Below are positions 22,655-27,006 of a stretch of DNA of 64,000 bases, in pieces. Position 1 is the stretch's first letter. Each line of letters opens with the position of its first letter. Position numbers and translations under genes: made by a program. The notes beneath the pieces were generated by a model. That model searched no databases and was not told the DNA's origin. It worked only from the letters and a program-made list of their open reading frames with translations. Source of the DNA: Methylophilus sp. 13 (lineage in GTDB: Bacteria; Pseudomonadota; Gammaproteobacteria; Burkholderiales; Methylophilaceae); contig NZ_JADKYR010000002.1 of the NCBI RefSeq assembly GCF_015354335.1, positions 186,001-250,000 on the forward strand, in the 5' to 3' direction.

Positions 22655-24523
22655 TTACAGTGCGAACACGCTCAATGCACCGCCGCCAGGCGCAGCGTTG
22701 TACTTGGTCAACTCTTTGTAACCACCAGCAGCACCCAGTGCGTCTGTGTCAGTCGTCATGCCCAAGTTCATCGCAACACCAGCCCAACCACCGATACCAG
22801 ACAAGATACCCACGTATTGCTTGCCTTTGTTACCGTAGGTGAATGCGTTACCAATCGCGCCGGAACCCACTTGGAATTTCCACAGTTCTTTACCGGTTTT
22901 CGCGTCAACCGCCTTGAACCAACGATCCAATGTACCGTAGAACACGATGTCTGAAGCCGTTGTCAGTGCACCACTCCACGCAGAGAACTTCTCTTTGTTG
23001 TACCAAACTTTTTTGTTGGTCATTGGGTCGTAAGCACCGAAACCACCCATCACGCCGTCTGGACCAGCAAACATGGTCAGTGTCGCACCAACCCATGGTT
23101 GACCAGCAACGTATTTGGACTCAACGGGCTCGTATGTCATACATACGTGGTTCAGTGGAGAGTACATCAAACCGGTTTTTGGTGAGTAGGCTGCTGGCTG
23201 TTGGTCTTTAGTCCCCAAAGCTGCTGGGCAGATACCCTTAGCATTGTAGTCCTGGTGTGTTGAGTAACGGCCATCTTTGCTTGGCACACCTGTTTTCAGG
23301 TCTACATCATTTGCCCAGTTAACGAATGGGTGTACTTTTTCAGCGGCAATTAAAGTACCGGTCAGTGCGTTCCAGGTGTAAGCAAAACCGTTACGGTCAT
23401 GGTGCCATGCGTATGTTTTGCCACCTTTGTCAAACAGGATCACTTCGTTCACACCGTCGTAGTCCCACTCATCGTGTGGTGTCATTTGCATTGCCCATTT
23501 AGCAACACCAGTATCCAGATCACGTGCAGTCACAGTCATAGACCATTTGTTGTCGCCTGGACGTACATCTGGGTTCCAAACGGATGGGTTACCCGCACCG
23601 TAGTAAACCAAGTTTGTACGTGCATCATATGGCCACCAGCCCCATACGGAACCACCACCATGTTGCCAGCCGTCTTTAATCGCTTGTGGTTTCAACCAGG
23701 TACGAGTACCCAACTCTTTTTCGCCACCTTTGATTTGGTCAGCTGACAAGCGCTTGAAAGAACCACCTTCTTTGTTACCACCATTCACGTCTTGATAAAC
23801 AGACAGTGCGTTGTAAAGCGGATTGTCTTTGTTAGTGTTAGCGTCGTGCAGTGTTTCAGCATCAGGACCTGTAGAGTAGGCTTTCCATGCCAGAGAACCG
23901 TCTTTCAGGTTGTATGCAGCGATAAAGCAACGTACGCCGAACTCAGCACCTGAGCAACCGGTCAGTACTTTGTCTTTGATCACATGTGGTGCGTTGGTGT
24001 TAGTTGCACCGACTTTTGGATCAGTGTTTTTAACGTCCCAAACTTTAGCACCGGTTTTTGCATCCAAAGCAACCAGCATGCCGTCGTTTTGTTGCAAGAA
24101 GATTTTACCGTCACCAAAACCCAGACCACGCGTCACGTTGTCACAGCACAATACTGCTTGTACGCTTGGGTCTTGTTTAGGAAAATAGGTCCAAACGATT
24201 TTCTGATTGTCGTTCAGGTCAAGTGCGTATACGTTGTTTGGGAAAGCAGTCACGATATACATCATGTTGCCAACAACGACTGGAGAGCCTTCGTGACCAC
24301 GGTTTACACCAGTCGCGAATGTCCACGCCATTTTCAGGTTTTTAACGTTGCCCTTGTTGATTTGTGCCAAAGCGCTGTAGCCTTGGTTATTATGTTGACC
24401 ACGTGGATGTGCCCAGTTGTTGGGATCTTTCATCGCAGCTTCTTGATCAGCAGCAGCGAATGCGAGCATTGGCATGGCAAGCGCAACGCTGGCAGCAATA
24501 CCAAAAGCAGTTTTGATTTTCAT
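22655..24523 (-). CDS. xoxF: XoxF, lanthanide-dependent PQQ methanol dehydrogenase
   Basis: 622 residues from the ATG at 24523, which has GGAG about 10 bases upstream and a clean signal peptide (cleavage after AFA, about residue 23). It is a periplasmic PQQ beta-propeller enzyme oxidising methanol. The adjacent-cysteine ring (VLCCDN, about 126-127) is present. The metal/PQQ ligands are GAEFG (Glu ~194) and GAGNPS (Asn ~312). The DEWDYDGVNE stretch has catalytic Asp ~354 and, two residues on, Asp ~356, the extra aspartate that marks lanthanide (XoxF) rather than calcium (MxaF) enzymes. The Glu-Asn spacing is about 34 residues longer than in well-known XoxF/MxaF proteins. No cytochrome (xoxG) or xoxJ gene is adjacent. 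Confidence 0.95.
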   Translation of the reverse strand: MKIKTAFGIAASVALAMPMLAFAAADQEAAMKDPNNWAHPRGQHNNQGYSALAQINKGNVKNLKMAWTFATGVNRGHEGSPVVVGNMMYIVTAFPNNVYALDLNDNQKIVWTYFPKQDPSVQAVLCCDNVTRGLGFGDGKIFLQQNDGMLVALDAKTGAKVWDVKNTDPKVGATNTNAPHVIKDKVLTGCSGAEFGVRCFIAAYNLKDGSLAWKAYSTGPDAETLHDANTNKDNPLYNALSVYQDVNGGNKEGGSFKRLSADQIKGGEKELGTRTWLKPQAIKDGWQHGGGSVWGWWPYDARTNLVYYGAGNPSVWNPDVRPGDNKWSMTVTARDLDTGVAKWAMQMTPHDEWDYDGVNEVILFDKGGKTYAWHHDRNGFAYTWNALTGTLIAAEKVHPFVNWANDVDLKTGVPSKDGRYSTHQDYNAKGICPAALGTKDQQPAAYSPKTGLMYSPLNHVCMTYEPVESKYVAGQPWVGATLTMFAGPDGVMGGFGAYDPMTNKKVWYNKEKFSAWSGALTTASDIVFYGTLDRWFKAVDAKTGKELWKFQVGSGAIGNAFTYGNKGKQYVGILSGIGGWAGVAMNLGMTTDTDALGAAGGYKELTKYNAAPGGGALSVFAL

Positions 24524-24576: not shown

Positions 24577-24680
24577 GCGGTGCTTAAGTTGCCACTGGCA
24601 CTAGGATTTCCAGAGCTGAAACATCCTGTAACGGATATATGTCACTTTATTAAGCGCTTGTAACTGTAATATAAATAACC

Positions 24681-24720: not shown

Positions 24721-24816
24721 CAGAGCGGGAATTTTTCCGAAAACTTTATTGAATTGCTTTTTTTTTGTATCATCTGGTAACGGAAGGCCATGTCCTAGTG
24801 TGCCCTTCAGGTAAGC

Positions 24817-25977
24817 GTGCCCAATGTGATGTGCAGGCACCCTTTTCTTGAACATAAGGCAAACGCAGACGTGCTGAGACCCTGGTATTACTCACTGGTA
24901 TTAGATAAGGATTCCCCTTCCTCCATACATCAGCAACTCATAGACCACTTCAGGTCGATGATAGAAGCAGGTGACTGGTTAGGCGGTAGTCCCTTGCCCA
25001 GCTCACGCGATATTGCGCAACGCCTGGGGATCAACCGAAAAACGGTTTCACGCGTATACGAAGAGCTTTCTGCACAAGGACTGATCTACACTCAACCCAA
25101 GCGCGGCACTTTTGTGGCCGAGACCGCCAAGCGCGCCAGCTCAGCAGACAAAGTGATGGCGGGCCAGAGCCAGTCATCTCTCGCACCACTCACCGAAACC
25201 AGCAACATAGAAAGCCTGATCCAAAAAAGTAGTATTCATCATCTGCGGCGGGCAGCATTGCATCTGCACAAATTGCGGCAAGCAGATTACGATGTCACGG
25301 GCTTGCATCATCTCAAGCATTTGCTGGCAAATTTGCTGGCACATGAACGGCGCTATCTGGTGCCGCCGGAACATATTGCCTGTGGCGCGCGGCATGGCCT
25401 GCAACAGGCGATCCTCTGCAATCTGGATGCAGCCCATGGTTATGTATTAATTGATGCCGAAGTCGGGACGGGGTTGGAGCGCGCGTTGAAAAAGCACGGT
25501 ATTCCAGTCATGAAACTGCCTGAAATGGCATGTAACCAGACTCAGCAGTTTATTGATCAGGTTGAAAAATACTGCATCAATTTTCCGGTATCCGCAGTGT
25601 GGTGTGATAGCAGCAAGATTGTGTCACCAGACCACCTGGAAGCCGAACACACCCTGATTGCACAAAAATTGTCCGATTATGGCCTGCTGCTCATTGATGA
25701 CCAGCGTAGCCGCCTCCCCCTGGGCCTTGAGCATCAACCGCCACTGGCCGCAAAGTACGCACGCAGCCTGCTACTCGGCAGCCTCTATGGAACCTTTTGC
25801 GAGATGTTCAACATTTGCTATGTGGCGAGCAACCTGGGATTCACAGACAAGTTCTTGAATGAAATGGACGCCCATTCACAATCTCCGTTGCTCTTGAATA
25901 TGCTGGCGCAAAGTGACCTGATTAAACGCGGTGAGTATAAAAAACTGGTGACCACAATACATCGCACCATGGCTTAA
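24817..25977 (+). CDS. MocR/GntR-type transcriptional regulator with degenerate aminotransferase domain
   Basis: 386 residues from a GTG with AGG 5 bases upstream; an ATG at 24829 is an alternative. The N-terminal GntR winged helix is clear (about 38-102: IHQQLIDHFRSMIEAGDWL, LPSSRDIAQRLGINRKTVSRVYEEL, split here). The rest is homologous to a fold-type I aminotransferase but shorter than usual MocR proteins (about 450-500). The usual PLP site GTFSKxLxPxLRxGY is replaced by GSLYGTFCEMFNICY, so the Schiff-base lysine is absent, and the DDYDxEFRY motif reads DDQRSRLPL. It probably cannot bind PLP covalently. Divergence from xoxF makes it a candidate xoxF regulator (inference). Confidence 0.82.
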   Translation: MPNVMCRHPFLEHKANADVLRPWYYSLVLDKDSPSSIHQQLIDHFRSMIEAGDWLGGSPLPSSRDIAQRLGINRKTVSRVYEELSAQGLIYTQPKRGTFVAETAKRASSADKVMAGQSQSSLAPLTETSNIESLIQKSSIHHLRRAALHLHKLRQADYDVTGLHHLKHLLANLLAHERRYLVPPEHIACGARHGLQQAILCNLDAAHGYVLIDAEVGTGLERALKKHGIPVMKLPEMACNQTQQFIDQVEKYCINFPVSAVWCDSSKIVSPDHLEAEHTLIAQKLSDYGLLLIDDQRSRLPLGLEHQPPLAAKYARSLLLGSLYGTFCEMFNICYVASNLGFTDKFLNEMDAHSQSPLLLNMLAQSDLIKRGEYKKLVTTIHRTMA

Positions 25978-26006: not shown

Positions 26007-26021
26007 GCACCAAATTGGTTG
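26007..26021. promoter_or_regulatory. NtrC-like enhancer site upstream of the sigma-54 promoter
   Basis: GCACC-AAATT-GGTTG matches the NtrC consensus GCACY-N5-GGTGC at 8 of 10 positions. Its centre is about 150 bases upstream of the predicted start at 26166, a usual distance for enhancer-binding proteins. The core CACCAAATT recurs at 26061-26069, 53 bases (five helical turns) downstream. Confidence 0.45.
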
Positions 26022-26138
26022 AAAGGAACCAAACAAAGGCGAAAATCGGCTATTAATAACCACCAAATTTTCGGGAAAAAATCCTATTTACTTTAAAAAT
26101 AGATTTTTAAAACATTGAGTTAAATTGAATTTATAGAG

Positions 26139-26155
26139 TTGGCATGAGAAATGCT
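26139..26155 (+). promoter_or_regulatory. Sigma-54 promoter match (-24/-12) between the MocR-type and PepSY genes
   Basis: TTGGCATG-N4-ATGCT: GG (26141-26142) and GC (26153-26154) are exactly 10 bases apart, and the -24 and -12 blocks each differ from consensus at one base. The predicted start is about 26166-26167, which is the first base of the GGGAGTG stem described in the next entry. Confidence 0.6.
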
Positions 26156-26165
26156 AAGTTCAAGC

Positions 26166-26301
26166 CGGGAGTGAGCTATCACTAGGACCGATACCAGCAG
26201 ACTGCATATCCGCCGGTATCGGGGTAGACACTCCCAAACTTGCATATTGATCTCAGTCAGAATAAAAAAGGCAACGCAATTGCGCTGCCTTTTTTATTCT
26301 G
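26166..26301 (+). ncRNA. Candidate sigma-54-dependent small structured RNA
   Basis: About 135 nt between the predicted start and an intrinsic terminator, with no ORF. The 5' end GGGAGTG (26167-26173) pairs with CACTCCC (26229-26235). Inside it CCGATACC (26188-26195) pairs with GGTATCGG (26215-26222), giving a closed two-stem 5' domain. A short unpaired stretch (26236-26257) leads to the terminator hairpin. The agreement of promoter spacing, predicted 5' base and closing stem is the main support. I do not recognise the RNA family. The partner activator is inferred to be NtrC-like from the upstream site. Confidence 0.5.
26258..26301. terminator. Strong bidirectional terminator
   Basis: A 16-base perfect inverted repeat (26258-26273 with 26286-26301) encloses a further CGCAATTGCG stem. 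A-run and T-run flank the GC core, so it terminates both the candidate RNA (+) and the PepSY gene (-). Confidence 0.9.
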
Positions 26302-26346: not shown

Positions 26347-26874
26347 TTACTCTTGACCGATTTGGTACACTTCGTAGCTGGTTTCCACAATCTTACCGGT
26401 TGTCGCATCAACTTCAACTTTGACTTCTTCATTGTCTGCTTCGAGGATATCAAATTCGTAAGAGGCTTTGCCATCTGGTTCAAGCTCATACTCCACTTCA
26501 ACCACTTTACCGGCATGCGCCGCCAGAGCTGTGGCTTTGGCATCGGCCTCTGAAACTTTAGCCAAGGCTTTGAATTTCTCGTCATCCGCGGTCACTTCTT
26601 GCTCTACTTCTGTGACTTTACCTGTTTTGGCGCTACACTCGATATCCCAAGCAGTGCCGTCTTTGGACTGCACATCAAACTCGTATACCAATTGCTTGCG
26701 CTCTGATTTGGCTTCGACTTTTACAATTTTGCCATCATGCACAGACAAGGCCGCTTTTACGCACTTACCCAGGCTGTCGTAGGCTTTTGGTTTGATAGTT
26801 TCATGGTCAGCGAATGCTGGCGCTGACAATACACCGCATACAGCGGCAATGATGAATGACGCTTTGATTTGCAT
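26347..26874 (-). CDS. Periplasmic PepSY-domain protein
   Basis: 175 residues. A signal peptide (about 1-22, ending APAFA) is followed by two PepSY repeats (about 35-95 and 100-170), each with the pattern of a helix then VxxVEaKxxxGkxvYEfdv...DGxxweIeCxAxTGkV. The second repeat shows [20 protein letters not shown] and DATTGKIVE. PepSY proteins are secreted or periplasmic and thought to modulate partners such as proteases; no catalytic residues are seen. AGGAG lies 7-11 bases before the ATG. It is monocistronic by its terminator. Strongly acidic (many Glu/Asp). Confidence 0.85.
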
Positions 26875-27006
26875 AATGATCTCCTAAGATTAAGTCATGA
26901 ACTCATCGTGCAAGACTGCGCTAGGGACGCATCTTGACACATTCACAACGATGCAAAGGATATCAAAAACAAACAGGGGTTTTGCAAATATTACACCTTA
27001 TTAACA

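Follow-up and report, generated by a model that had tools for sequence, protein, structure and literature searches.

The stretch of DNA analysed here (the window) comprises 64,000 nt of Methylophilus sp. 13 (GCF_015354335.1, contig NZ_JADKYR010000002.1, positions 186,001-250,000 of the forward strand), and contains a predicted small RNA (sRNA) gene between mocR, which adjoins the methanol dehydrogenase gene xoxF1, and an apparent orthologue of lanPepSY (Table 1). This sRNA is designated type A and a paralogue of it type B; G-numbers denote genomes (G000 being that of Methylophilus sp. 13), L-numbers denote loci, and g46 and g7 are two other genera of Methylophilaceae. In all 14 type-A loci compared, the RNA lies between mocR and the PepSY gene, and the order xoxF-mocR-sRNA-PepSY recurs in those g46 and g7 loci that are long enough, making three genera in all; L080, L084, and L085 retain mocR and xoxF, with no PepSY gene adjacent.

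Table 1. Features of the sRNA locus and its neighbours (window coordinates).
Feature	Position	Strand	Basis
xoxF1, lanthanide-type methanol dehydrogenase, predicted target	22655-24523	-	TIGR03075 above cut-off; D-Y-D after EW
TCCTAGT in xoxF1 leader, complementary to bulge	24600-24606	-	
TCCTAGT in mocR leader	24793-24799	+	
mocR, MocR-type regulator, predicted target	24871-25977	+	GntR domain
Upstream inverted repeat GGTTGAAAGGAACC (9/10 matches), about -142, putative activator site	26017-26030	+	repeat scan
Weaker repeat copy GGCTATTAATAACC, placed as in most relatives (-110)	26048-26061		sequence
RGGA-N5-TCCY box, GGGAAAAAATCCT, a palindrome that occurs once in the window	26073-26085		
-24/-12 sigma-54 promoter TGGCATGAGAAATGCT (GG 26141-26142, N10, GC 26153-26154)	26140-26155	+	pattern, conservation
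sRNA gene (type A), predicted +1 (26166-26167) through terminator end	26166-26301	+	fold, blastn, covariance model
P1 stem GGGAGTG (26167-26173) / CACTCCC (26229-26235), enclosing P2 and P3	26167-26235	+	covariation
P2 stem CTATC (26176-26180) / GGTAG (26223-26227)	26176-26227	+	two-sided changes between types
7-nt bulge ACTAGGA, complementary to TCCTAGT of target leaders	26181-26187	+	invariant in 26 aligned sequences
P3 hairpin CCGATACC (26188-26195) / GGTATCGG (26215-26222)	26188-26222	+	sequence varies, pairing kept
Linker seed AACTTGCATATTGATCTC, complementary over 18 nt to the start codon and ribosome site of xoxF2	26237-26254	+	
Terminator hairpin, nearly symmetrical	26258-26301	+	fold; aligned in 14/14
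lanPepSY orthologue, predicted target; ribosome site and start GGAGATCATTATGCAA at 26869-26884	26347-26874	-	
CCTAG in lanPepSY leader hairpin loop	26921-26925	-	

The second Asp of the D-x-D motif of methanol dehydrogenases is a lanthanide ligand, and D-Y-D, the lanthanide-type signature, is present in XoxF1 as well as in the portion of XoxF2 that was read. The start codon of mocR is probably the GTG at 24871, judging from comparison with related sequences. The aligned MocR proteins of Methylophilus read GSLYG or GSLAH and are missing the PLP-lysine motif (those of g46 and g7 mostly read GS[LF]SK), and the MocR proteins beside RNAs of the L001-L014 type have a shortened C-terminus, which suggests that the MocR-type regulator of the window may no longer bind PLP covalently. 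The PepSY protein (175 aa, with two PepSY stretches) matches PDB entry 9vy3, inferred to be LanPepSY itself, over the length of the mature protein (E 2.7e-49). The LanPepSY protein of Methylobacillus flagellatus is described, in the available parts of the reports, as periplasmic, of 19 kDa, and with two PepSY domains (PMC12482762); it was expressed as residues D24-E175 (PMC11899968). The product of the window gene meets this description (about 19 kDa, two PepSY stretches), and the gene looks like an orthologue, with lanthanide binding inferred.

The original prediction was of a structured, sigma-54-driven sRNA without an ORF. The RNA of 26166-26301 folds at -57.1 kcal/mol, compared with -30.1 kcal/mol (sd 3.2) in 200 shuffles, none of which is as low (z -8.4), and the GGGAGTG/CACTCCC pairing, the inner stem, and the terminator hairpin are all as had been described. 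No ORF of at least 60 aa overlaps the RNA on either strand; a protein-coding reading was dropped because the helices covary and there is no 60-aa ORF. The hairpin at the 3' end qualifies as a Rho-independent terminator, and its near symmetry means that it could also stop the convergent PepSY transcript. The RNA had not been recognised as a known one, and Rfam (15) gives no match to it at gathering scores, the Qrr model included, and at a relaxed threshold returns 23 rows, all below gathering scores, many on the terminator, and none of them Qrr.

Compensatory changes, which had been proposed as a check, are numerous in the helices of the Methylophilaceae alignment. Among 21 type-A sequences (20 distinct) with 22 base pairs, 96.3% of alignment cells are paired, compared with at most 50.1% for slid-partner controls, and 11 of the 22 pairs have changed on both sides, a number reached by 4 of 500 shuffles (mean 8.3). 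The 13 type-B sequences, with 26 pairs, have 94.9% of cells paired and nine pairs changed on both sides; a mixed set of 26 sequences, restricted to the 13 pairs of P2 and P3, has 97.9% paired and again nine pairs with two-sided changes. P2 changes little within type A, both of its sides changing between type A and type B. The alignment rows in which the bulge is invariant were excised around ACTAGGAC[CT], and members without that string could have been missed.

The predicted -24/-12 element, GG-N10-GC, is present upstream of the RNA, and a match of this kind is by itself at the level of chance (two in the window, 1.07 expected); the promoter rises above chance because it is conserved, a script that kept the last match within 60 nt having found one in each of the 23 type-A loci examined (three genera). 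Of two further loci, inspected by eye, L115 has TGGCAT..TCGC, and L117 keeps GG-N10-GC with AGGCAC in place of TGGCAC. Failure of the -24/-12 element or the stems to be conserved in close relatives would have refuted the original prediction, and both are conserved. Promoter conservation, a conserved inverted repeat upstream, and helix covariation together support the prediction, and 26166-26301 is confirmed as the gene of a structured RNA that is conserved together with its -24/-12 promoter, the transcript itself being inferred.

The inverted repeat, close to GGTTGNNNNCAACC (GGTTG-N4-CAACC) with at least 8 of 10 matches, lies upstream in all 23 type-A loci, at -108 to -114 in 15 of 17 from Methylophilus, at about -126 in three from g46, and at about -152 and -133 in three from g7, its distance being constant within a genus and different between genera. 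Against dinucleotide shuffles it reaches p <=0.05 in 22 of the 23 loci (0.095 for L007), with a consensus that was picked after the sequences had been seen. The genome of Methylophilus sp. 13 has rpoN and ten matches to the sigma-54 activator domain, and it is inferred, without binding data, that such an activator would bind at the repeat. A search for the repeat (GGTTN6AACC) together with a sigma-54 box elsewhere did not reveal the identity of the activator, and found the combination also ahead of operons for FecI-like sigma factors and FecR (L144, L148, L154, L155, L159-L161, and, in the same genome with a 1257-aa TonB receptor, L264 at G000:C8:62000-72000), which suggests that the putative activator also acts on other genes and that an iron-type sigma factor may be under sigma-54 control. 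The same combination occurs in L157 and L176 (around 1500-1700) in intergenic DNA with at most a short frame, beside a gene that resembles ispH by eye, possibly marking another sigma-54 sRNA; and in the g7 loci L164, L165, L166, and L170 (around 1500-1950) beside a gene that by eye resembles glyA, a few hundred nucleotides ahead of the next ORF on the same strand, where yet another sRNA is possible.

The type-B paralogue has the same bulge and a linker that matches the start of xoxF2. Thirteen copies were read from twelve Methylophilus genomes (L072-L079, L081-L083, L086, and L091, with the second copy of G012 left out), the copy of Methylophilus sp. 13 being L072 (G000:C9:13871-14003). No sigma-54 box is evident by eye; instead, an RGGA-N5-TCCY palindrome is found at -50 in 12 of 13. 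The same box precedes 11 of 21 type-A genes and 8 of 14 xoxF2 genes of Methylophilus, 2 of 18 xoxF1 genes, none of 14 lanPepSY genes, and none of 12 xoxF leaders from RNA-negative genomes. One unidentified factor may serve the box of type A, type B, and some xoxF2 genes.

Near full-length homologues of the sRNA are found by blastn in 13 of 20 relatives of the same genus in addition to Methylophilus sp. 13, and in four other genera the match covers the terminator part only. A covariance model of the structured domain (R2) has matches in 27 of 187 genomes of the family (18 of 22 Methylophilus, three of g46, and six of g7), and at least two matches in 13 of the 18 positive Methylophilus genomes; searches of more than 40 genomes were run with stricter filters. 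In 399 genomes of the order, a draw poor in Methylophilaceae, R2 has three matches, all in Methylophilus. In g7 all six matches have weak E-values (6e-4 to 9e-3); when read out, L113-L116 and L118 show both core and promoter (the sequence of L114 starting within the promoter), and in L117 the core is accompanied by a weaker promoter match. An exact pattern scan across GTDB found 16 stretches, ten of them in Methylophilus or Methylophilaceae; the other six were taken as chance, and among them a model designated R1 reports two up to E 10, the better at 0.19.

The complement of the bulge, TCCTAGT, occurs three times on the two strands of the window: opposite the sRNA bulge itself and in the leaders of xoxF1 and mocR. 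The shorter CCTAG lies within 125 nt before the start of mocR in 20 of 20 loci (L014 unscored), of xoxF1 in 17 of 18, of lanPepSY in 15 of 20, and of xoxF2 in 9 of 14 from Methylophilus (two of these from one species), and falls in predicted hairpin loops of the leaders; its distance to the start is 73-116 nt for xoxF1 and 54-98 nt for mocR. Of the 60 genes of the window, 5 have CCTAG in their leaders, three of them being xoxF1, mocR, and lanPepSY. Because the leader sequences are related, binomial values for such counts are not probabilities. No CCTAG occurs within 125 nt of 12 xoxF starts in nine genomes without the RNA, a contrast that is largely a paralogue effect, since the motif is also absent from xoxF2-type leaders of g46 and g7 genomes that do have the RNA (L231, L244, L246, L256, and L258-L261). 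In the lanPepSY leader hairpin (15 in Methylophilus, nine distinct), six of seven pairs have changed on both sides around an invariant CCTAGC; covariation in the mocR leader hairpin taken alone (6 of 20 hairpins) is not significant.

The genome of Methylophilus sp. 13 has 21 occurrences of TCCTAGTG, compared with 69 of the reversed control. Two of the 21 lie opposite the sRNAs, and the leaders of xoxF1, mocR, and xoxF2 account for three more; the remaining 16 comprise 11 that fall within ORFs of one or the other strand, one that precedes an ORF by 191 nt, two with no ORF nearby, and those at L209 and L221. At L209 (G000:C7:4437 region), TCCTAGTG begins 38 nt before the probable start (AGAGATCAGATTATG) of a gene that by eye is PAS/chemoreceptor-like, in a leader that reads TTTC-GTCCTAGT-GAAA, and this gene is a possible further target. 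At L221 it lies just ahead of a gene that by eye resembles ilvD.

A second complementarity is provided by the linker between P1 and the terminator. Its reverse complement, searched in 22 Methylophilus genomes with at most two mismatches, matches GGAGATCAA[T/C]ATGCAAG in 21 (all except G015), and in the 14 of these that were fetched the matched sequence comprises the start and ribosome site of a xoxF-type gene; in Methylophilus sp. 13 this gene, xoxF2, is followed by genes for a periplasmic binding protein and two cytochromes c. The 18-nt duplex with xoxF2 has an energy of -28.9 kcal/mol, equalled by none of 1000 shuffled linkers. Against the 60 genes of the window the linker averages -15.1 kcal/mol (sd 3.3), and the best is lanPepSY (-25.6 kcal/mol, the next being -23.6), the ribosome site and start of which are nearly antisense to it.

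Each linker tends to follow the target of its own clade, the match being longest there (18 nt for G000, compared with 9; 17 for G016, compared with 9 or 7; 12 for G159, compared with 9 or 6). The target reads AAC-ATG in G001, G006, G012, and G016, and the available sRNAs of these genomes (G001, G012, and G016) read GTTGATC, not ATTGATC. The g7 genomes G159, G166, and G169 have the target ATGCAAATC and linkers reading TTTGCAT, with matches of 12 nt (shuffle p 0.0004), 9 nt (0.005), and 9 nt (0.009), respectively; these three are the only ones of six g7 genomes that can be compared, as G165 and G167 have no target site within three mismatches and that of G157 reads AAAATGCAAGTT. A conserved seed complementary to target ribosome sites and co-varying with them is thus present, with the exception of g46, where no match is apparent by eye, and on the strength of few events, one inside Methylophilus and one between genera. 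Single changes unmatched in the target are found in the linkers of L004, L005, L007, L009, L013, and L014, with one extra each in L084 and L085. The start of xoxF2 is identical in Methylophilus genomes in which the sRNA was not detected (G006, G018, and G019), and so is not maintained for the sRNA alone. The linker is open in the fold of the window RNA; the alignment fold pairs its ends, mostly TTGC with GCAA, a pairing lost from the window RNA, and in type B the linker forms a hairpin, so that the seed may be partly closed. As far as comparison of sequences can establish it, pairing of the sRNA with its targets is well supported in Methylophilus, and the complementarities point to mRNAs of lanthanide methylotrophy, which goes beyond the original prediction.

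The promoter, the structure, and the complementarities with their co-variation can be read from the sequences themselves, and from these 26166-26301 is probably the gene of a trans-acting, sigma-54-dependent, base-pairing sRNA, most likely repressing mRNAs of lanthanide methylotrophy. RNA polymerase with sigma-54 would transcribe it with the help of an activator bound at the GGTTG-N4-CAACC-like repeats, and the folded 5' domain would present the ACUAGGA bulge to hairpin loops with CCUAG or UCCUAGU that the mRNAs of xoxF1, mocR, lanPepSY, and xoxF2 have in their leaders. For xoxF2 and lanPepSY of Methylophilus, the linker would in addition cover both the ribosome site and the start codon and block translation. 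Lanthanide-dependent methanol oxidation would in this way be placed under coordinated post-transcriptional control, most likely repressive. Transcription of the gene, encounters with the targets in the cell, the sign of the effect, the signal, the identity of the activator, and any role of Hfq are inferred. That the bulge contact and the linker contact are not colinear on one mRNA counts against this reading. A more specific form of it, held with no more than even confidence, has two paralogous sRNA types (one with a sigma-54 promoter and one with another promoter) sharing one frozen bulge that would dock on the loops of at least four mRNAs (two of xoxF, mocR, and lanPepSY), possibly also that of L209, after which the linker would close the start.

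The same leaders might be paired with a different result, some mRNAs being activated or stabilised, for example by opening of the xoxF1 and mocR hairpins, and only xoxF2 being repressed, so that the sRNA would switch cells between two XoxF enzymes. This is unlikely. In its favour, the upstream loop is all that xoxF1 and mocR have, with no linker match at their ribosome sites by eye, and xoxF2 and lanPepSY do have a ribosome-site match; against it, lanPepSY, a presumed partner of XoxF, would be repressed along with xoxF2. It is quite improbable that CCTAG/ACTAGGA is instead a DNA operator (of MocR, for instance) or the motif of an RNA-binding protein titrated by the sRNA, the complementarity being a by-product of the palindromic CTAG. 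The self-complementarity of CTAG would place it in both partners, its position before mocR itself is what autoregulation would produce, and it follows the xoxF1-mocR-lanPepSY cluster rather than every xoxF of RNA-bearing genomes; but the stems around the motif vary and yet pair (in lanPepSY, and in xoxF2 by single-sequence folds), which DNA binding would not need, the C before CTAG in the leaders matches the G after CTAG in the sRNA, and the linker match is a second, independent complementarity.

Titrating RNAs of the Csr/Rsm type carry many GGA motifs in apical hairpin loops. The bulge contains a GGA, and there is a weak match to the CsrC model, yet titration of CsrA/RsmA with this GGA as the protein site is hardly credible: the conserved GGA is a single one and lies in a bulge, the ACU beside it is just as fixed, and the CsrC score is far below gathering (20.1 bits, compared with 61). 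A riboswitch-like function, with the bulge binding metal, is no more than conjecture. Base pairing with the leaders, most likely repressive, remains the preferred reading.

In its general plan the predicted RNA resembles the Qrr sRNAs of Vibrio, a small multi-copy family with sigma-54 promoters dependent on an activator, terminators, and pairing with target mRNAs; it differs in lineage, in having no Rfam match, in the fixed internal bulge that faces the hairpin loops of its targets, and in that those predicted targets are mRNAs of lanthanide methylotrophy. With NrsZ and CrcZ, sigma-54-dependent sRNAs of Pseudomonas, the RNA has only the type of promoter in common. The repeated A-rich motifs of CrcZ serve to titrate Hfq/Crc; the RNA described here has instead one structured bulge together with an antisense linker, and is without a match in Rfam. 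The lanthanide switch of methylotrophs, which acts on xoxF genes as the sRNA would, is described in the accessible part of the account as inverse transcriptional regulation of calcium- and lanthanide-dependent enzymes (PMC6028718), whereas the sRNA would act post-transcriptionally. No sRNA is mentioned in the available parts of the reports on LanPepSY of M. flagellatus (PMC12482762, PMC11845868, and PMC11899968), the apparent orthologue of which adjoins the sRNA as a predicted target. Among the matches listed in the open-licence literature, no title or beginning of an abstract concerns such an RNA for xoxF or methanol dehydrogenase, Methylophilus, or Methylophilaceae; the sole mention of 'small RNA' in PMC8262872 is a title in its reference list.

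What decides which XoxF enzyme a cell uses, and how much of its lanthanide-binding proteins it makes, is an open question, for which the control described, as far as the available parts of the literature go, is transcriptional. The exact bases to be mutated are defined, and the idea is directly testable in Methylophilus. If it is true, sigma-54 would tie these genes perhaps to a signal other than the metal; the two contacts would constitute a mode of recognition in which mRNAs enter the regulon by gaining a CCUAG hairpin; and a post-transcriptional layer of control would be encoded inside the lanthanide gene cluster, complementary to the mRNAs of that very cluster.
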